From: Gelidibacter gilvus
GTDB taxonomy: Bacteria; Bacteroidota; Bacteroidia; Flavobacteriales; Flavobacteriaceae
NCBI RefSeq assembly: GCF_004115975.1
Contig: NZ_SDDZ01000004.1
Location: 186,001-250,000, forward strand
Direction of reading: 5' to 3'
DNA length: 64,000 bases
Shown here piece after piece: positions 34,842 to 43,297 of this stretch (within the stretch, counting starts at the first letter, position 1; each line of letters begins with the position of its first letter). Below the pieces are notes generated by a model. It saw only the letters and a program-made list of their open reading frames with translations. It was not told the DNA's origin and ran no database searches. The position numbers and the translations under genes were made by a program.

Positions 34842-36719
34842 ATGCTCCAAAACCAACATGATATATTACAAATCCTTTTTGATGCCGTTTCTGAAGGAGT
34901 CGTAGTGGTGGATGAACACCAAAACATTGTATCTACAAATTCGTCGGCAAATGCCATGTTTGGATATGAAAACAATGAACTTGTAGGACAGACTTTGGAC
35001 ACCTTAATCCCCAGCGAGTATCACCAAAAGCATGTGGGGCATTTTAATAGGTTCTATAAGCATAGTGAAAAACGACGCATGGGCCAGGGGCGTAATTTAT
35101 ATGGTCTCACCAAAAGCAAGAAGCGCTTTCCGGTAGAGGTCGGACTGAATCCTTTTACCCTTTATGGGAAAACTTTGGTAATGGCACTGGTTGTGGATAT
35201 TACAGAGCGACGCGCAATTGAAGAAAACCTGAATTTAAAAAGTGAGGCCCTACAATCGGCCGGCAACGGTATTGTAATTTGTGACGCCTTACAAAAAGAC
35301 CATCCCATTCTTTATTTTAATCCCGCTTTTCAGAACTTAACGGGCTATACTTCTGAAGAAATCCTAGGAAAGAATTGCCGGTTTCTTCAAGGTGATGATA
35401 GGGATCAAGAAGGCTTGCTTGCCGTACGTGACGCCATAAAAAACGGGCATAGTTGTCAAGTGATCTTACGGAATTATAAAAAGGATGGCACTTTATTTTG
35501 GAATGAACTCTATATCAACCCTATTAAAGATACCAGCGGATTGATAACGCATTTTGTTGGGATTCAAAATGATATTACCCAACGCAAGAAAGCGGAAGAA
35601 GAACGCAACTACCTCACCAAGATCTTTGATGATTCTCTCAATGAAATATTTGTTTTTGACTCCGATACCTTAAATTTTGTGAACGTCAATTATGGCGCTC
35701 AAAAAAATCTGGGTTACAGTCTTGAAACCCTCAAAAGCATGACGCCGGTAGATATCAAACCGAATTATTCTGAAACGGAATTTAGAGCACTGCTGGCCTC
35801 TTTAACAAATGATAAAGAGGATAAAATGGAGTTTGAGACCATTCATCAACGAAAAGATGGCACCACGTATCCTGTCCATATCACCTTGGAACTTTCTATT
35901 TTGGGGGATCGAGAGGTGTTTATTTCTATTGTTTTAGACATCACCGAGCAAAAGAATTACACCAAAAAGTTAGAGGAAACGGTCGAGTTGAGAACTAAGC
36001 AACTGGAAATAGCTCTCGAAAAGGAAAAGGAGCTTAATGATCTCAAAACCAAATTTCTATCGCTAGTGTCACATGAATTTAAAACACCTTTGAGCGGTAT
36101 TCTCACATCTTCCATACTCTTGGGGAAATACACATTAGAAGAACAACAGGGCAATCGTGATAAACACATCAAAATCATCAAGGATAAAGTGAATTACCTG
36201 AATACGATTTTGAACGATTTCTTGTCCATTGAAAAACTGGAAACTGGAAAAGTAAATTATAAATTCAGCACTTTTAGATTGAGCAAGGTCGTGAATGAAG
36301 TGGTTTATAATGCCAACATGCTCTTGAAGGAAGGCCAGCAGGTGAAATATCCAGAGAATATTGATGATATTTCTTTAACCCAAGATGAGAAAACCATAGA
36401 ATTGGCCTTGTCAAATCTGGTGCATAATGCCATTAAATATTCCTCCGAACATACAGATGTGACCATAAAGATCACTCAAAACAGTAAGGACACCATTTTT
36501 GAAATATCCGATTCGGGTATCGGAATCCCTGAGAAGGATCAAAAAAATATATTTAACCGCTATTTTAGATCAGAAAATGTATTGACCACACAAGGCACAG
36601 GAATTGGATTGAATATCGTAAAATCGCATATAGAAAATTTAGGTGGTTCCATAAGCTTTAAAAGCAAGGAACATGTTGGATCAACTTTTATATTAACCAT
36701 CCCAAATAAAGCACAATAA
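34842..36719 (+). CDS. LOV-PAS sensor histidine kinase
   Basis: This 625-aa cytoplasmic kinase has no membrane segment. PAS1 spans about 7-122. The second sensor domain (about 138-246) carries the complete LOV signature GKNCRFLQG at 176-184: the adduct-forming Cys179 and Gln183, plus flavin-contacting Asn211 (NYKKDG), Asn221 (FWNEL) and Gln242 (GIQND). PAS3 spans about 258-370, with a coiled coil at about 370-405. The HisKA box has phospho-acceptor His411 (SLVSHEFKTP). The ATPase domain has the N box (NLVHNAIKYSS, 525-535), G1 (DSGIGIP, from 557) and G2 (GTGIGLNIV, from 585). LOV domains bind FMN/FAD and form a cysteinyl adduct in blue light, so blue light or redox is the likely input. It overlaps the response regulator gene by one base (TAATG). 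Confidence 0.9.
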   Translation: MLQNQHDILQILFDAVSEGVVVVDEHQNIVSTNSSANAMFGYENNELVGQTLDTLIPSEYHQKHVGHFNRFYKHSEKRRMGQGRNLYGLTKSKKRFPVEVGLNPFTLYGKTLVMALVVDITERRAIEENLNLKSEALQSAGNGIVICDALQKDHPILYFNPAFQNLTGYTSEEILGKNCRFLQGDDRDQEGLLAVRDAIKNGHSCQVILRNYKKDGTLFWNELYINPIKDTSGLITHFVGIQNDITQRKKAEEERNYLTKIFDDSLNEIFVFDSDTLNFVNVNYGAQKNLGYSLETLKSMTPVDIKPNYSETEFRALLASLTNDKEDKMEFETIHQRKDGTTYPVHITLELSILGDREVFISIVLDITEQKNYTKKLEETVELRTKQLEIALEKEKELNDLKTKFLSLVSHEFKTPLSGILTSSILLGKYTLEEQQGNRDKHIKIIKDKVNYLNTILNDFLSIEKLETGKVNYKFSTFRLSKVVNEVVYNANMLLKEGQQVKYPENIDDISLTQDEKTIELALSNLVHNAIKYSSEHTDVTIKITQNSKDTIFEISDSGIGIPEKDQKNIFNRYFRSENVLTTQGTGIGLNIVKSHIENLGGSISFKSKEHVGSTFILTIPNKAQ

Positions 36720-37774
36720 TGAAAAAAATACTATTGATTGAGGACGATGCCGTTTTAAGAGATAATACTGCAGAACTCCTGGAACTGTTAAGCTATCAAG
36801 TAACCGTCGCATCTAATGGTAGAATAGGTGTGGAAAAAGCAAAAACACAATTCCCAGATATCATAGTTTGTGATATTATGATGCCGGAACTGGATGGCTA
36901 CGGCGTTTTGGAACAATTGGCCAATGATGACCAAACCAAGCACATTCCTTTTATTTTTCTATCCGCAAAAACAGAACGTCACGACGTAAGGAAAGGAATG
37001 AATTTAGGTGCAGACGATTATATCACCAAGCCTTTTAGTGAAGATGAGTTGGTAAGTGCCATTGAAAGCCGCTTGGCTAAAGCCTCCATCTTGAAAGAGA
37101 TTAGAGGAAGAGAGGAAGCTTCGGGTTCTGACGATAAAACGGAGGAAATCAATACCCTTAGCGACCTAAAGAGTTATTTTGAGACCGATGGAACGTTCCA
37201 TAATTATCAGAAAGGTGAAGACATTTATGAAGAAGGCCAAAATTCCAATGCCATATTTTTGATAAAGGAAGGGATTGTAAAATGCCATAAGCTTGACGAA
37301 CAAGGAAAAGAACTGACCACTGCTTTGCATAAAGCTTCAGATATATTTGGCTATACGTCATTTCTTCAAAACATACCCTACCAAGAGACATCCACAGCGC
37401 TTAATGATTCCAAATTGGTGGGTATTTCAAAAGATCAACTCAAAAAGATTTTGGATAAGAACACCCATATTACTTTTGAACTTATTGAATTGCTCACCGA
37501 TGATCTGAAGGGCGTAAAGGATCAATTGTTGCAAATGGCCTACAGTTCGGTCCAAAAAAAGACCGCGAGTACCATATTAAAATTCGCAGAAAAGTTGGAC
37601 CCCAAACATGGAGGTGCCATTAAAATTTCTCGTAGCGATTTGGCAAGTGTCGCTGGGATTGCAACCGAAACACTGATTAGAACCATTTCCAATTTTAAAA
37701 AAGAAGGCCTGATAGAGATTGAAGGCAGAAATATAAAAATCTTAGACCTCAAAGGACTTCAAGAAATATTTTAG
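36719..37774 (+). CDS. Response regulator with receiver, cNMP-binding-type and Crp/FNR HTH domains
   Basis: This 351-aa protein has a receiver domain at 1-120 with the acidic pair Asp9/Asp10, phospho-acceptor Asp52 (CDIMMPELDG), Ser82 and Lys104 (YITKPF). Residues about 165-265 form a Crp-type cyclic-nucleotide-binding-like beta-roll (YQKGEDIYEEGQNSNAIFLIKEG). Residues about 290-345 form a Crp/FNR winged helix (ISRSDLASVAGIATETLIRTISNFKKEG). No cysteine cluster for an FNR iron-sulphur centre was seen. The receiver therefore gives a Crp-like regulator phospho-control. It is translationally coupled to the LOV kinase, its likely phosphodonor. Two ATGA-N6-TCAT dyads upstream of usp genes downstream are the obvious candidate targets. 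Confidence 0.92.
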   Translation: MKKILLIEDDAVLRDNTAELLELLSYQVTVASNGRIGVEKAKTQFPDIIVCDIMMPELDGYGVLEQLANDDQTKHIPFIFLSAKTERHDVRKGMNLGADDYITKPFSEDELVSAIESRLAKASILKEIRGREEASGSDDKTEEINTLSDLKSYFETDGTFHNYQKGEDIYEEGQNSNAIFLIKEGIVKCHKLDEQGKELTTALHKASDIFGYTSFLQNIPYQETSTALNDSKLVGISKDQLKKILDKNTHITFELIELLTDDLKGVKDQLLQMAYSSVQKKTASTILKFAEKLDPKHGGAIKISRSDLASVAGIATETLIRTISNFKKEGLIEIEGRNIKILDLKGLQEIF

Positions 37775-38084
37775 TGAAATCCCTGTCTGCCGACAAGCAG
37801 GCAAACCTCAAAAGCGGAGCGCATAGAGTTTTTTTTGTTATCCAAAGAGCTATCGAAATACGCCTTCTCGTTTTTAATGGAATCGAAATTAAAGACAATG
37901 CGTTGAGTTCATTTTTTCCAGGCTTTCGCAAATATCTGCAAGTTCGTCGCCGACGCTAAGGCATAAGTGATATCCTCCATATCCTAATCCTTCAAAATGA
38001 TATGGGTTACGGCTCAATTTATTTATCACAAACAATTCAATGTCATGTGTAAATTCTTTTATTAAATGCTATAACCGGACAGAC
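37775..38084. other. Spacer between regulator and Usp cluster
   Basis: No convincing gene. An imperfect GCCTG/CAGGC palindrome (about 37784-37806) resembles words at 42387-42410. The rest is A/T-rich leader DNA before the operator listed at 38085. Confidence 0.5.
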
Positions 38085-38098
38085 ATGACCGATATCAT
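38085..38098. promoter_or_regulatory. Candidate Crp/FNR-type operator, copy 1
   Basis: ATGACCGATATCAT is a perfect ATGA-N6-TCAT dyad with the half-site spacing of Crp/FNR sites (TGA-N6-TCA). Its first base lies 36 bases before the TATATTTG -7 box, placing its centre about 42 bases upstream of the expected transcription start, the class II activator position. The site at 39713 has the same core and offset. Confidence 0.65.
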
Positions 38099-38120
38099 TT
38101 CACAGGAGAATACATCCTTA

Positions 38121-38128
38121 TATATTTG
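38121..38128 (+). promoter_or_regulatory. -7 promoter element of the first usp gene
   Basis: TATATTTG is a full match to TAnnTTTG, 28 bases before the ATG at 38156. No -33 TTG stands out, which fits an activator-dependent promoter. Confidence 0.6.
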
Positions 38129-38155
38129 TTCTGCTTACCATAATGGCGGATCAAC

Positions 38156-39001
38156 ATGAAGAATATACTATTACCAACTGACTTTTCTGAAAATTCTTGG
38201 AATGCAATTGTTTACGCGCTTAAGTTTTTCGATAAAACACCATGTACATTCTATTTGCTACATGTTAATTCCTTAAGTTATTTAGCAGCGACGGATTCGC
38301 CATATATTCAAACCAAGGATTTTGTTGAAAACACGTTTACAAAACCTGCCAAAAGGCAATTAAATACCCTTTTGAAACGAATTTCAGCAGAATTCCCAGT
38401 GAAACCTAACCATCATTTTTTTACGCTTACCGATTATAATTTTTTTGTGGATTCCGTTCGTAATCATGTGGTGGAAAAAAAGATTGATATGATTGTCATG
38501 GGCACAAAAGGCGCCAGTGGCTTGAGAAAGGTGATTATTGGGAGTAATGCGGCAGATGTCATAAAAAAAGTACAATGCCCAGCTTTGGTCGTTCCAGAGG
38601 ATGCGAAATTCACCACTTTGGAAGAGGTTGCTTTTCCAACAGATTATCTTTTGACTTATGCTGTAGATCTTTTGAAACCACTTTATAATATTCTGGAGGC
38701 GCATCAGTCGAGTTTACAGGTGTTGCATGTGACCAATAGAGATGATACGTTGACCATTGCTCAGCAGGACAATAAAGATGTGCTCAATGAATATTTTCAT
38801 AAATTCGAATGCCAATTCCATAAACTGACCAACAGAAACGTGGAAGATGCCATTGAATGTTTTGTGCAAAGTAGGGATATCAAGATGGTGGCCATGGTAG
38901 CAAAGAACCTGAATTACTTTCAGCGGATTTTATTCCATAATAAAATTGAAGAAATGACTTACCATACGCATATTCCGTTTTTGGTGATGCACGACAAATA
39001 A
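38156..39001 (+). CDS. Tandem-domain universal stress protein (Usp 1)
   Basis: This 281-aa cytoplasmic protein consists of two UspA domains. The first (about 1-147) starts MKNILLPTDFSENSWNAIVYAL and carries the ATP-binding signature VMGTKGASG...IIGSNAADVI (G-2x-G-9x-G-S). The second (about 160-281) keeps the fold marks (VAFPTDY at its start, MVAK near the end) but lacks the G-x-x-G loop, so it is probably nucleotide-free. Usp proteins help survival under starvation, oxygen or energy stress by largely unknown means. It is separated from the other four usp genes by 781 bp of repeats but has the same type of operator and promoter as the next one. Confidence 0.93.
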   Translation: MKNILLPTDFSENSWNAIVYALKFFDKTPCTFYLLHVNSLSYLAATDSPYIQTKDFVENTFTKPAKRQLNTLLKRISAEFPVKPNHHFFTLTDYNFFVDSVRNHVVEKKIDMIVMGTKGASGLRKVIIGSNAADVIKKVQCPALVVPEDAKFTTLEEVAFPTDYLLTYAVDLLKPLYNILEAHQSSLQVLHVTNRDDTLTIAQQDNKDVLNEYFHKFECQFHKLTNRNVEDAIECFVQSRDIKMVAMVAKNLNYFQRILFHNKIEEMTYHTHIPFLVMHDK

Positions 39002-39510
39002 AATTCCTGCGCAGGCAGGAATCTCCCACATTCCTGCGCAGGCAGGAATCTCATAATTATCTATCCTACTCTTATTTTTCTCTCCCGCAGATTTGCGCGG
39101 ACTTGTACTTGGTTACAAAGAGTGACACAGAGTATCACAGAGATTGCTCGGAGTTGCACAGAGATTTTTTTCTAAGAAAACGAGAACTCAGGCCAAGCAT
39201 GGAGAGAATTTAATATTCGTTATCGGCTTAACCTATTCTAAAAATTTCCCGACTTCGCAGGAATCTCCCACATTCCTGCGAAGGCAGGAATCTCATAATT
39301 GTCTATCCTACTCTTATTTTTTCTCCCGCAGACCCGCCTACAGGACGGACAGGTTGCGGAGGTTTCCGCGTATTTGTATGCGGTTGCACAGAGCTACACG
39401 GAGTATTCGCGGAGTTGCACAGAGATTTTTTTCTAAGAAAACGAGAACTCAGACCCAGCATGGAGAGAATTCAACGGATTAGCAAAGTAATCATCAGGCC
39501 CAATCTAAAA
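39002..39510. repeat. Intergenic duplication of REP-like, CTGCG and CACAGAG repeats
   Basis: Two related blocks (about 39003-39215 and 39240-39475) share the same order: ATTCCTGCG...GCAGGAAT palindromes, TCTATCCTACTCTTATTTT, CCCGCAGA, CACAGAG words, then GAGATTTTTTTCTAAGAAAA and GCATGGAGAGAATT. The landmark GAGATTTTTT occurs at 39161 and 39422, a step of 261 bp. The second block carries an extra GC-rich insert (about 39335-39360). No credible gene, although an open frame runs through it. Confidence 0.75.
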
Positions 39511-39575
39511 TTCTCCTCCTTTTAAAGGAGGAGTGGCTTCTGCTTCAGCACAGAAGCAGAAGACGAGGTGGTGGG
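39511..39575. repeat. Double-hairpin dispersed element, copy 2
   Basis: A perfect 10-bp-arm palindrome (CTCCTCCTTT / AAAGGAGGAG, 39513-39533) is followed by TGG, then CTTCTGCTTC / GAAGCAGAAG, then ACGAGGTGGTGG. It has the same two-stem plan as 9359-9428, with different stem sequences. Confidence 0.75.
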
Positions 39576-39712
39576 AATCCAGGAATATGCAGGGTTACAC
39601 AGAGCTGCTTTTCGGTTGGTGGATTTATCAGTGTTGAACAGAAACCATCTGCGCTCATCTGCGAAATTTGCGGGAAACTTCTCACTAATCCCCAAACTTA
39701 ACCACTCTCCAA

Positions 39713-39726
39713 ATGACTTATATCAT
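39713..39726. promoter_or_regulatory. Candidate Crp/FNR-type operator, copy 2
   Basis: ATGACTTATATCAT matches the site at 38085 in 12 of 14 bases, including both half-sites. It lies exactly 36 bases before a -7-like box, the same offset as copy 1. The repeat-rich DNA just upstream is not shared between the two promoters, so the conservation is local to the site. Confidence 0.65.
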
Positions 39727-39748
39727 AGTTTTTATGGTTTTAATCCCT

Positions 39749-39756
39749 TAACTTTA
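39749..39756 (+). promoter_or_regulatory. -7-like promoter element of the usp operon
   Basis: TAACTTTA matches TAnnTTTG at all but the last base and lies 27 bases before the ATG at 39783. A weak box with a well-placed operator suggests activation. Confidence 0.45.
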
Positions 39757-39782
39757 TCCCATATCAAATAAATTCTAGCACT

Positions 39783-40646
39783 ATGATTTCTATACTTTTT
39801 CCTACGGATTTTTCTAAAAACTCAATGAATGCCATCACCTATGCCTTGGAGTTTTTTAAATATGAAAAGGTTGCGTTTTATTTCATGCACGCCTACCAAA
39901 AGGACGTTTATGATCATGAGGATTTACTGTCCCGTGATAATTTTGATGATGTTTTGGAGCGTGTAAAAGCACAATCTGAAGCCAGTTTGGAAGAACTTTT
40001 GAAGACGGTCAATGAAATGGCGCCGAATCCGCGATATACCTATCACAGTATTTCGGCTTTTGGCTCCCTTGTAGAAGAAGCCAATGAAATTGCCGACCGA
40101 AAGAATATCGATTTGATTGTTATGGGAACAAAAGGCAAATCTGATGATCGTAAAATTGTTTTTGGAAGCCAAACCTTCCAAGTCTTAAAATATGTGCAAT
40201 GTCCGGTATTGGCCATTCCGAAAAATTATACCAACACCCAGCCTAAACGTATTTTATTTCCAACCGATTATCTCATACCCTACAAGCGACGGGAATTGAA
40301 ATTATTATGCGATTTAGCAGCGCCATACAGAAGTATTGTGGATGTGTTGTATGTTTCAAAAATTGATAAATTATCGATCAGGCAAGAAGACAATCAGGCT
40401 TTTATGAAAGGAACCATCTGCAAAACTGAAATAAATTTCATCACTGCAAACAGTCGAAAAGTTGCTGAAACAATTCAGGAATATATCAAAGAGAATGAAG
40501 TTGACATGTTGGTCATGGTCAATACCCAACATTCGTTCTTAGAAAACATGTTGTTTCCATCCAATATCGATAAAGTAAGTCTTGATCTTAAGATTCCGCT
40601 GTTAGCGATGCAAAACTCGACACGTTCGACATCAGAACTTTTATAA
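39783..40646 (+). CDS. Tandem-domain universal stress protein (Usp 2)
   Basis: This 287-aa protein has two UspA domains. Domain 1 begins MISILFPTDFSKNSMNAITYAL and holds the nucleotide-binding loop VMGTKGKSDDRKIVFGSQTFQVL, in which the usual second glycine of G-x-x-G is replaced (KGKSD). ATP binding is less certain than in Usp 1. Domain 2 (from about 157, RILFPTDYLIPYKR) lacks the loop. It is the first gene of a tight run (gaps of 7, 13 and 84 bases to the next ones) and has the second copy of the Crp-type operator. Probably a cytoplasmic stress protein. Confidence 0.92.
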   Translation: MISILFPTDFSKNSMNAITYALEFFKYEKVAFYFMHAYQKDVYDHEDLLSRDNFDDVLERVKAQSEASLEELLKTVNEMAPNPRYTYHSISAFGSLVEEANEIADRKNIDLIVMGTKGKSDDRKIVFGSQTFQVLKYVQCPVLAIPKNYTNTQPKRILFPTDYLIPYKRRELKLLCDLAAPYRSIVDVLYVSKIDKLSIRQEDNQAFMKGTICKTEINFITANSRKVAETIQEYIKENEVDMLVMVNTQHSFLENMLFPSNIDKVSLDLKIPLLAMQNSTRSTSELL

Positions 40647-40653
40647 TTTGATC

Positions 40654-41502
40654 ATGAAAAACATACTCCTTCCGACTGATTTTTCGGATAATTCTTTGAA
40701 TGCCATCCGATATGCCATTCAGCTTTTTGAAAATGACGATTGTACATTTCATCTGTTCAATGCTTATACACCAGTGGTTTATGATCTGACTTATGTGCTG
40801 CTCAGTCCTGCACAGTTTGGACTTCGTGATCCCATAAGAGCGGCTTCTCAAGAAGGTTTAGACGAACTGATCAAAGAACTTTTAAATGAATTTGGTAGCA
40901 ATCCCAACCACAAGTTTGAAACCATTGCTAGGTTTGAAACGCTTATTGCTGGAATCAAGGAATTGATTATTGAACGCAATATTGATCTTGTCGTTATGGG
41001 AACCAAAGGCGCAACCGGTGCTAAAAAAATATTGTTTGGTTCCAATACGGTTCAAGTGTTTAGGGAGATCAAGTTTCCAGTATTGGCCATCCCATCGAAT
41101 TTTGATTATGTGACACCTCAAGAGATCTTGTTTCCTACCGATTTAGAAGTGGAATTCACTATGGGACAACTTCAGGTACTTAAAGAAATAGCGAAGTTGC
41201 ACACTTCTAAAATCAACGCCTTGTACGTTAGCACAGGTCATGGTTTGAGTGAGATACAAGATCGTAATAAAACACTATTGCCTACGCTATTTAAAAGAAT
41301 GGCCTATGAGTTTCACGATGTTGAAGATATGGAGATTCCTGCAGCCATTAACAGGTTTCAAGAAGAACATTCCGTTGACATGTTGGTGATGATCAATAAT
41401 AAACAATCATTTTTTGAGAATATATTTTTCAAGGACACCATTAATCAAATCGGTTTCTATTTGAATATCCCATTTCTCGTGATTCCGTCAAAACAGGGCT
41501 AA
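40654..41502 (+). CDS. Tandem-domain universal stress protein (Usp 3)
   Basis: The ATG at 40654 is preferred over an in-frame TTG two codons upstream, because it gives the family start MKNILLPTDFSDNSLNAIRYA. The protein is 282 aa. Domain 1 has an intact loop VMGTKGATGAKKILFGSNTVQVF (G-2x-G-9x-G-S). Domain 2 (EILFPTDLEVEFTMG onwards) is degenerate. It starts 7 bases after Usp 2 and so shares its transcript. Confidence 0.93.
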   Translation: MKNILLPTDFSDNSLNAIRYAIQLFENDDCTFHLFNAYTPVVYDLTYVLLSPAQFGLRDPIRAASQEGLDELIKELLNEFGSNPNHKFETIARFETLIAGIKELIIERNIDLVVMGTKGATGAKKILFGSNTVQVFREIKFPVLAIPSNFDYVTPQEILFPTDLEVEFTMGQLQVLKEIAKLHTSKINALYVSTGHGLSEIQDRNKTLLPTLFKRMAYEFHDVEDMEIPAAINRFQEEHSVDMLVMINNKQSFFENIFFKDTINQIGFYLNIPFLVIPSKQG

Positions 41503-41515
41503 AAATTAAAACATC

Positions 41516-42358
41516 ATGACTTCAGAAAAACTACATATTTTAATCCCTACAGATTTTTCAAAAAACGCATGGAGCGCCACGGTATATGCTTTAAATCTGT
41601 ATGCCGAGCACCATTGTACCTTTTATTTTTTAAATTCTATCTCACTCGATCATACCGACTCAAGATCTTATATTACCACGCGGTTCTTGGACTCGTTGAC
41701 TGAAACTTCGAGAACCGAGTTAAGTGTACTGAAGGATCGAGCAACACAATTATATAGTAATCCGAATCATGAATTTGAGGTCATAAGCACTTCTGAAGAG
41801 ATTACGTTGGCCATAAAAAGAGCCGTGCAGATAAATACTATAGACTTGGTGGTGACAGGAACTAAAGGAGCTACTGGTGTTAATAAGTATTTTTTAGGAA
41901 GTAATACGGTCAAGGTCATTCAGAGCTTGAAAAGTTGTCCGATGCTTGCCGTACCAGATGCCTACGAATTCAAAGCTCCGAAGCATATTGCATTTCCAAC
42001 CGATTTTAACCGTGTTTACGAACCGAAAGAATTACAGGCATTACTAAATTTCGCCGATTTGTATCAGGCCCATATTTATATTTTGCACATCAATTTACAA
42101 AGTGAATTAAGTGAACGGCAAGAAAGCAATAGGAGAGCCCTTCAAGCGCATTTGGTGAAGCATCAGCACACGTTTCATTGGGTGGAGAAATCTGCGACAA
42201 AATCGGATGAGATCAACGAGTTTATTAAAGATTTGAAGATCGATGTGCTTGCCATGGTGAATTATAAGCACAGTTTTGTTGAAAGAGTCATTAAAGAGCC
42301 GGTCATCAAAAAGATAGGATTTCAACCGATGGTGCCGTTTCTGGTGATTCCAGAATAA
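41516..42358 (+). CDS. Tandem-domain universal stress protein (Usp 4)
   Basis: This 280-aa protein starts MTSEKLHILIPTDFSKNAWSATVYAL. Domain 1 keeps the loop VTGTKGATGVNKYFLGSNTVKVI, with Thr where most family members have Met/Leu. Domain 2 begins at about 158 (HIAFPTDFNRVYEP) and lacks the loop. It lies 13 bases after Usp 3, in the same operon. The conserved C-terminal pattern NYKHSFVERV...PFLVIPE resembles the other four, supporting origin by tandem duplication. Confidence 0.92.
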   Translation: MTSEKLHILIPTDFSKNAWSATVYALNLYAEHHCTFYFLNSISLDHTDSRSYITTRFLDSLTETSRTELSVLKDRATQLYSNPNHEFEVISTSEEITLAIKRAVQINTIDLVVTGTKGATGVNKYFLGSNTVKVIQSLKSCPMLAVPDAYEFKAPKHIAFPTDFNRVYEPKELQALLNFADLYQAHIYILHINLQSELSERQESNRRALQAHLVKHQHTFHWVEKSATKSDEINEFIKDLKIDVLAMVNYKHSFVERVIKEPVIKKIGFQPMVPFLVIPE

Positions 42359-42442
42359 AGTTAAAGGTTCAAAATCTCAAATGCCATGCCTATCGACAGG
42401 CAGGCGAAAATCAACTAATCAAATTGAAATAAATAGATATCC

Positions 42443-43297
42443 ATGAAAAGAAAAATATTATTGCCTACGGATTTTTCAGACAATGCGCTACAGGCCATCA
42501 ATTATGCCTTGGAACTTTATAAGGATCAAGAGTGTATTTTTTATCTTTTAAATGTGTTTTTTATAAACCCAACTAATCTTGAAAACCTAATTGGCATGGA
42601 GCCTGGCAGTGACTTATATGAGGCCACCAAAAGACATTCCGAAAATCAGTTGCATAAATTGTTGAGTGAGGTTGCTTTTAATGACAACGGAAATTCGAAA
42701 CACAGCTTTCAGACCATATCCACTTTTAATGAACCATTCCAGGCCATTAAGGCTGCGGTGGAAGAAAAAGATATTGAGATGATTGTGATGGGAACCCGCG
42801 GACAGACCAATGCCAGAAGCAAAATTTATGGAAGTACCGCTATCGATGTTATGGAAAAAATCAGGAATTGCCCGGTGATTGTAGTACCACAACTGGCTAA
42901 GCGTGAAATTCCGAAGGAGATTGTCTTTCCAACAAACTATAAAACCAATTTCAAGAAACAGGAACTAAAACATCTGATAAATATTGCAAAAAACAGCAAT
43001 GCGTCCATAAAAGTATTGCATGTTTCAGAGGAAGGAAAATTGAACGACCAACAGACCAACAACAAAAAGCTGCTGGACGAATATTTTGAAGAAGTCAGCC
43101 ATTCTTTCCATTTATTAAGTCAATTGTCGGTTCCTGAGGCCATTAATTGTTTTGTTGAAAGTAGAGAAAGTGATATGGTGGCGTTCATAAATAGTAAACA
43201 TTCATTTTTCGCAAGTATTTTTAATCAGCCCTTGGTAAAAGGGATTACCTATGATTCAAAAGTGCCGATTTTGGTGATGCATGATTTGAAGAATTAA
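42443..43297 (+). CDS. Tandem-domain universal stress protein (Usp 5)
   Basis: This 284-aa protein starts MKRKILLPTDFSDNALQAINYAL. Domain 1 has VMGTRGQTNARSKIYGSTAIDVM, a variant loop (GTRGQTNA) that departs from G-x-x-G; domain 2 (EIVFPTNYKTNFKK) is degenerate. It is preceded by 84 bases that include a GCCTATCGACAGGCAGGC-type repeat word (42387-42406) but no operator like those at 38085 and 39713. It is therefore probably read from the upstream usp operon. Confidence 0.91.
   Translation: MKRKILLPTDFSDNALQAINYALELYKDQECIFYLLNVFFINPTNLENLIGMEPGSDLYEATKRHSENQLHKLLSEVAFNDNGNSKHSFQTISTFNEPFQAIKAAVEEKDIEMIVMGTRGQTNARSKIYGSTAIDVMEKIRNCPVIVVPQLAKREIPKEIVFPTNYKTNFKKQELKHLINIAKNSNASIKVLHVSEEGKLNDQQTNNKKLLDEYFEEVSHSFHLLSQLSVPEAINCFVESRESDMVAFINSKHSFFASIFNQPLVKGITYDSKVPILVMHDLKN

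Follow-up and report, generated by a model that had tools for sequence, protein, structure and literature searches.

A conserved two-component module of Flavobacteriaceae with a receiver-Crp/FNR output, a candidate heme PAS domain and an optional LOV domain

Gelidibacter gilvus carries, within a 64,000-nucleotide stretch of DNA (contig NZ_SDDZ01000004.1, positions 186,001 to 250,000; hereafter the window), consecutive genes for a multi-PAS histidine kinase, a response regulator in which a receiver is fused to a Crp/FNR module, and five universal stress (Usp) proteins (Table 1). We propose that kinase and regulator constitute a two-component switch widespread in the Flavobacteriaceae, comprising an oxygen/redox core that operates through the first PAS domain of the kinase (PAS1), a lineage-specific light branch that operates through a LOV domain, and a phosphorylation-controlled Crp/FNR output. 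We put the probability of this reading at about 0.6. Comparison of genomes gives good support to the kinase/receiver-Crp/usp module and to its promoter code. The core signal is more likely to be oxygen or redox state because the PAS1 shared by the family is of the FixL/DosP type and because composite promoter sites stand at low-oxygen and denitrification genes; a switch core of low-oxygen nature is therefore likely.

The kinase would phosphorylate the receiver, and the phosphorylated regulator would then bind TGAY-N4-RTCA dyads at about -41 and activate usp genes in the class II manner of FNR and FixK, probably together with part of a low-oxygen respiration regulon. PAS1 most likely binds heme and would report oxygen or another gas or redox state. 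The LOV domain, placed after PAS1 and ahead of the catalytic core, would bind flavin and allow blue light or flavin redox state to modulate the same kinase. We infer these steps, as we do the sign of each signal and the function of the Usp proteins, from domains, residues and sites.

Conservation of the module and its promoter sites

Two samples of relatives were compared. The named set holds the best 80 of 541 relatives of the regulator, that is, close kin rather than an even sampling of the family; the closest of these are Gelidibacter pelagius, G. maritimus and G. japonicus at 83-87% identity. Thirty short loci (L009-L038) are excluded from all its counts, and its alignments contain 81 receiver-Crp rows (the window and 80) and 79 kinase rows (the window and 78). 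The even sample comprises 149 Flavobacteriaceae genomes, 66 of which have a full-length receiver-Crp regulator; the analysis covered 70 main regulators, that of the window among them, together with 15 paralogues (41-46% identity).

The kinase gene lies directly upstream of the regulator gene in 78 of the 80 named loci, the other two starting at contig ends, and adjoins it in 67/70 main cases and all 15 paralogue cases of the even sample. No adjacent kinase was found for three of the 70 main regulators, one near a contig end (L249) and two that are the most diverged (L265 and L266, 50-51% identity). Every one of the 80 named loci combines the regulator with at least one usp gene, an adjacency scored in these closest relatives and not in the even sample. 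At E<=1e-60 the regulator is matched in 43 of 296 genomes of the phylum, 27 of them outside the family (34-46% identity).

An original prediction, made by a model from the letters of the window, had described a kinase gene that overlaps a receiver-Crp gene, followed by five usp genes with Crp-type dyads, as a possible module of the family. The overlap is real (34842-36719 and 36719-37774 share one base), Pfam matches Usp in all five downstream products, and the adjacency of kinase and receiver-Crp genes across the family bears out the conserved neighbourhood. On the dyads the prediction needs correction: they stand before usp1 and usp2 only, which are likely to be the heads of two transcription units; usp3, usp4 and usp5 have none.

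The dyad is TGAY-N4-RTCA (ATGAY-N4-RTCAT as a palindrome in the window) and a composite site is a dyad followed at fixed spacing by a -7 box. The two dyads of the window are by themselves weak evidence, since 0.50 would be expected by chance and 10 of 100 shuffles contain at least two; the strength comes from the relatives. The dyad TGAYNNNNRTCA precedes the first usp gene in 77 of 79 named loci, and TGAY-N4-RTCA occurs within 200 bases of 130 of the 188 downstream usp genes of the named loci, where the whole-locus density is 0.058 per 200 bases. A TAnnTTT[GA] box begins exactly 29.5 bases past the dyad centre in 122 of the 126 dyads found at -95 to -45 in these loci, and any other spacing occurs at most twice. 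We take this box to be the Bacteroidetes -7 element, TAnnTTTG, and the dyad centre would therefore lie near -41, the class II place of FNR and CRP. In the even sample, a dyad is located within 350 bases downstream of the regulator gene in 66/70 main cases as opposed to 7/15 paralogues; for complete composite sites the figures are 55/70 and 1/15.

Two other boxes were tried. TTGA-N6-TCAA occurs nine times in the window (3.1 expected; nine reached in 1 of 100 shuffles), never before a usp gene, and was rejected; the generic TGA-N6-TCA (29 against 22.6 expected) is uninformative. Between usp1 and usp2 lies a gap of 780 bases in which short, imperfect direct repeats (ATTCCTGCGCAGGCAGGAATCTC, for example) were noticed by eye at 39000-39640.

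The Pfam matches of the regulator are Response_reg, cNMP_binding and HTH_Crp_2, which place it in the CRP/FNR superfamily. The receiver retains D9, D52 and S82 in 81/81 rows and T103-K104 in at least 78 of the 81. An N-terminal cysteine cluster of the FNR type was not found in the regulator, whose only cysteines are Cys51 and Cys189. Neither was a LuxR-type helix-turn-helix (HTH) output such as that of FixJ; the output is a cNMP-type fold with HTH_Crp_2.

Genes under composite sites

The genome of G. gilvus contains 28 composite sites and the reversed control none. They stand before four usp promoters, hemN, the copper nitrite reductase gene nirK, ccoS and ccoN, and before a cytochrome c551-like gene that leads to nosZ. 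The cytochrome is weakly matched, both NCBIfam matches being below their cut-offs, as is that of nosZ (507 bits against 625, the gene being cut by the end of the analysed stretch). Further sites precede genes for a NapC/NirT-type cytochrome, AhpC, a CBS protein, an MlaE permease, dodecin, ATP synthase beta and formate-tetrahydrofolate ligase, and the kinase gene of a paralogous system. For some of the genes under composite sites no matching family was found, and at two sites, L128 and L132, the range contains no open reading frame (ORF) longer than 60 amino acids. One region (C38:60871-70500, L121) brings together hemN, usp, the copper nitrite reductase, the cytochrome c551-like gene and nosZ with three composite sites, as a partial denitrification cluster. 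A divergent promoter pair at C42:106551-106721 (L153, L154) also carries composite sites, one of them before a gene for an ATP-cone and Mrr-type nuclease protein; a protein that looks alike by eye (for example L102:16115-16954) occurs in 20/80 named loci.

In the named loci 300 composite sites were counted: 142 before usp genes, 30 before genes of a small-protein family, 19 before ccoNO, two before hemN and 62 before other ORFs, the remaining 45 having no ORF of at least 100 amino acids within 300 bases. The recurrent small-protein family has no NCBIfam match (138 amino acids in L075, 7536-7952) and is present in 40/80 named loci. At least one of ccoNO, ccoG, ccoP and a ccoI-like ATPase, the last identified just as a heavy-metal P-type ATPase, occurs in the analysed flanks of 28/80 named loci, and at least two do so in 24/80; ccoNO itself was found in 20.

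The same genome encodes two related regulators. One belongs to a second receiver-Crp pair (C40:88813-91463, L119) and is 43% identical to the regulator of the window; a composite site precedes its kinase gene, and the PAS1 of that kinase has Tyr at the heme-His position. The other is a stand-alone FNR-like protein (C38:91849, L165) with an N-terminal CxxC and further cysteines, encoded about 3 kb from the ccoSN promoter. Its recognition helix (GTATESAIR) is nearly identical to that of the receiver-Crp regulator (GIATETLIR). The three proteins may share boxes, and the composite sites would mark a low-oxygen regulon that is perhaps shared with the stand-alone FNR-like protein.

PAS1 and LOV as inputs to the kinase

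By Pfam, the kinase has three PAS stretches in addition to HisKA and HATPase_c. PAS1 is present in 78/78 named kinases and PAS3 in 20/78. At E<=0.01 PAS1 matches 14 solved structures, each of them a heme PAS domain, from FixL, DosP or FG214 (FG214, 10jx, is so classed by its structure title). A profile of the 79 PAS1 rows matches heme PAS structures at E 1e-21 to 1e-14, and the next match, the LOV domain of YtvA, comes at 1e-9. His64 aligns with the heme-ligand position of FixL, which in FixL/DosP domains stands where helix F-alpha begins; it is kept in 79/79 rows and in 62/67 main partner kinases of the even sample. Arg84, at a position that we take to be that of the distal arginine (R220 in FixL, R97 in DosP), is kept in the window and in 70/79 rows overall. 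On this comparison PAS1 is the input domain common to the family, of FixL/DosP type and with a near-invariant candidate heme-ligand histidine. That it binds heme has, in our judgement, somewhat better than even odds.

Several observations weigh against the proposed switch. Positions 79 and 82 of PAS1 are polar in most rows while the aligned FixL residues are hydrophobic. In the predicted model of PAS1, His64 opens a helix (residues 64-74), and although the mean pLDDT is 83.5, it falls to a low-confidence 59-64 across residues 61-80. A Foldseek search with this model returned heme and LOV PAS domains mixed at the top and did not discriminate between them. No dyad was found before the kinase gene. 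Composite sites also occur in genomes that have no full-length receiver-Crp regulator (median 6 as against 22 with it, a comparison confounded by relatedness and lifestyle), and since a stand-alone FNR-like protein and a second receiver-Crp exist, the sites at hemN, nirK, nosZ and cco may belong elsewhere. Finally, the LOV domain may signal independently of light.

The alternative that survives best is a PAS1 that holds no heme and serves another small molecule or a structural role, the shared signal being energy or redox state received by an unknown route. It would account for the two polar positions in the distal pocket and for the paralogue kinases, only 8/15 of which have His at the heme position (the paralogue of the own genome having Tyr). 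The near-invariance of His64 in kinases that lack LOV (51/52) and the fact that the nearest solved relatives are heme PAS domains argue against it, and we regard it as unlikely, though less so than the alternatives that concern LOV.

The LOV domain itself is as the original prediction described it. The pocket is complete (C179, R180, Q183, N211, N221 and Q242), and the solved structures that best match residues 129-257 come from LOV proteins and LOV-FixL chimeras, including 4gcz. With the adduct Cys, the two Asn and the Gln that contact flavin mononucleotide, and the Arg, the kinase has the residues that define LOV photoreceptors. Judged by these pocket residues, the domain should be photoactive. 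The window kinase thus retains both pockets, that of PAS1 (His64, Arg84) and that of LOV.

LOV is present in 13/78 named partner kinases and, in the even sample, in 15/67 main kinases (window included) and 9/15 paralogue kinases. All 24 LOV matches at E<=4e-37 in the 149 genomes lie in kinases that abut a receiver-Crp gene, and the pairing is therefore not accidental; in four weaker matches (E 1e-25 to 1e-21) Pro takes the place of the Cys, and LOV proteins more distant than the reach of this search may exist in these genomes. On the best tree of the 79 rows, LOV presence changes six times (at least four times by well-supported branches). G. algens and G. sediminis have no LOV, and their module falls elsewhere in the tree. 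Among the 24 LOV kinases linked to receiver-Crp (window included), Cys is kept in 23, Gln242 in 19 and the full set of C, N, N and Q in 18; among the 14 LOV rows of the named set (window included), Cys is replaced in two and Gln by Leu in two. The LOV domains of L113, L114, L075, L093 and L190 have either lost the adduct Cys (to Leu or Ile) or have Leu for the signalling Gln, and constitute natural variants in which any LOV signalling without the adduct could be studied.

The original prediction had made blue light (or flavin redox state), received through LOV, the main signal; PAS1 and PAS3 would then be passive or serve dimerisation. The circuit from kinase through receiver-Crp to usp genes stands as far as the conserved module and the promoter architecture are concerned, and the pairing of all 24 close LOV matches with receiver-Crp genes, together with the intact pocket of the window kinase, speaks partly in favour of the prediction. 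That blue light is the signal of the system is not supported in that form, since 65/78 named and 52/67 sampled partner kinases have no LOV. The state of PAS1 can be read both ways. In the main kinases of the even sample, Arg84 is kept in 4/15 with LOV as against 45/52 without, and His64 in 11/15 as against 51/52, as if LOV had taken over. However, the window kinase and three Gelidibacter LOV kinases retain both residues, some LOV members have lost Cys or Gln, and among the named rows 9/14 with LOV and 61/65 without retain Arg84, with His64 kept in all. The association of LOV gain with loss of PAS1 residues gives a Fisher value of 2e-5 for Arg84 in a plain table; on the tree it reduces to five independent pairs and is not significant. 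We keep it for that reason as a lead, according to which light could take the place of the oxygen pocket. As the main signal of the switch, light is improbable; as an accessory input in the lineage of the window it is plausible, given the intact residues.

Least probable is the opposite extreme, in which oxygen or redox state acts alone and LOV is either a relic of evolution or a sensor of flavin redox state, with no light role in the cell: the many relatives without LOV, its repeated changes on the tree and the replaced residues (in the named rows as above; in the 24 LOV kinases of the family sample Cys in one and Gln in five) fit such a history, but the window and its close kin keep all photochemical residues, and LOV is bound to receiver-Crp partners instead of being scattered.

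The proposed switch can be extended to a joint claim, which we advance tentatively and regard as less likely than not. In the window, a single chain would combine an oxygen PAS of the heme type with a LOV that is photoactive, integrating blue light and oxygen ahead of one phosphorylation-controlled, FNR-like regulator that governs usp genes and genes of low-oxygen respiration. Some of the sister lineages would have exchanged a decaying oxygen pocket for LOV, and within one cell an Fe-S FNR would also read this box.

Table 1 Features of the kinase/receiver-Crp/usp locus (window coordinates)
Feature	Position	Strand	Basis
PAS1-LOV-PAS3 sensor histidine kinase, 625 amino acids	34842..36719	+	ORF call, Pfam
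PAS1, residues 13-125, FixL/DosP-like, His64 and Arg84	34878..35216	+	phmmer/profile matches to heme PAS chains; row conservation
LOV domain, residues 129-254; adduct Cys179 (codon 35376-35378), Asn211, Asn221, Gln242	35226..35603	+	Structure matches, residues
PAS3, residues 255-378	35604..35975	+	Pfam, comparison of named kinases
HisKA and HATPase_c catalytic core, residues 402-622	36045..36707	+	Pfam
Receiver-Crp/FNR response regulator, 351 amino acids; one base shared with kinase stop	36719..37774	+	ORF call, Pfam
Receiver domain; Asp52 codon 36872-36874	36728..37066	+	Pfam; Asp52 in 81/81 rows
cNMP-binding-like fold and HTH_Crp_2; recognition helix ATETLIR; without N-terminal Cys cluster	37199..37768	+	Pfam, alignment
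Dyad ATGACCGATATCAT before usp1	38085..38098	+	Dyad scan
-7 box TATATTTG, starts 29.5 bases past dyad centre	38121..38128	+	Sequence, composite-site scan
usp1	38156..39001	+	ORF, Pfam Usp
Dyad ATGACTTATATCAT before usp2	39713..39726	+	Dyad scan
-7 box TAACTTTA, spacing as at usp1	39749..39756	+	Sequence, composite-site scan
usp2, first gene of likely usp2-5 operon	39783..40646	+	ORF, Pfam Usp; operon inferred from gaps
usp3; TTG start, in-frame ATG at 40654 also possible	40648..41502	+	ORF, Pfam Usp
usp4	41516..42358	+	ORF, Pfam Usp
usp5	42443..43297	+	ORF, Pfam Usp

Relation to known systems

Bacterial LOV histidine kinases are known from Brucella, Caulobacter (LovK) and Erythrobacter (EL346). 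Like the engineered LOV-FixL chimera 4gcz, these couple LOV to a histidine kinase. The window kinase differs from them in that its LOV is flanked by a FixL-like PAS on one side and a third PAS on the other, and in that its partner is a receiver-Crp protein. No description of a LOV kinase, a receiver-Crp regulator and usp genes in combination was found in the literature searched, a body that most subscription journals lie outside.

FixJ consists of a receiver and a LuxR-type HTH. DosR is likewise of the receiver-LuxR type, and its system has heme in GAF domains, no Crp module and no LOV. FNR senses oxygen with an Fe-S cluster, and the core of its box is TGAT-N4-ATCA. The window regulator differs from FNR in having a receiver and no cysteine cluster. 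The rhizobial system divides receiver and activator between FixJ and FixK; in the window a single protein joins the receiver directly to the Crp/FNR module, and its partner kinase has a LOV domain.

The likenesses are these: (i) FixL/FixJ-FixK2 also has a FixL-like PAS kinase and a CRP/FNR-type activator; FixK2 controls the cbb3 operon in rhizobia, and for Bradyrhizobium a table, the meaning of whose columns was not checked throughout, lists usp, hemN, cbb3, CBS and MlaE proteins under microoxia (PMC6515984); (ii) mycobacterial DosS/DosT-DosR is a hypoxia two-component system over many usp genes, with 10 USPs among 48 genes, and in this control of usp genes resembles the system of the window (PMC6127331, PMC6898941); (iii) Herbaspirillum Fnr has usp, hemN and fixNOP among its targets, at a site centred at -42, which corresponds to the class II position proposed here (PMC5934665).

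FixL/FixK-like control through a fused receiver-FNR protein, with an optional LOV domain, is thus a variant on a known theme. As judged by gene comparison, the genes of the module keep together in numerous relatives, in a bacterial family whose members are mostly marine, and LOV is an extra in some of them. If the proposed switch is correct, a common bacterial group would run FixL/FixK-like low-oxygen control through a protein that fuses receiver and FNR, and in Flavobacteriaceae LOV photosensing would be dedicated to that switch. The usp clusters of flavobacteria would gain a defined signal and a promoter box, and the engineered LOV-FixL kinases would have a natural counterpart in which the combination of light and oxygen could be studied.

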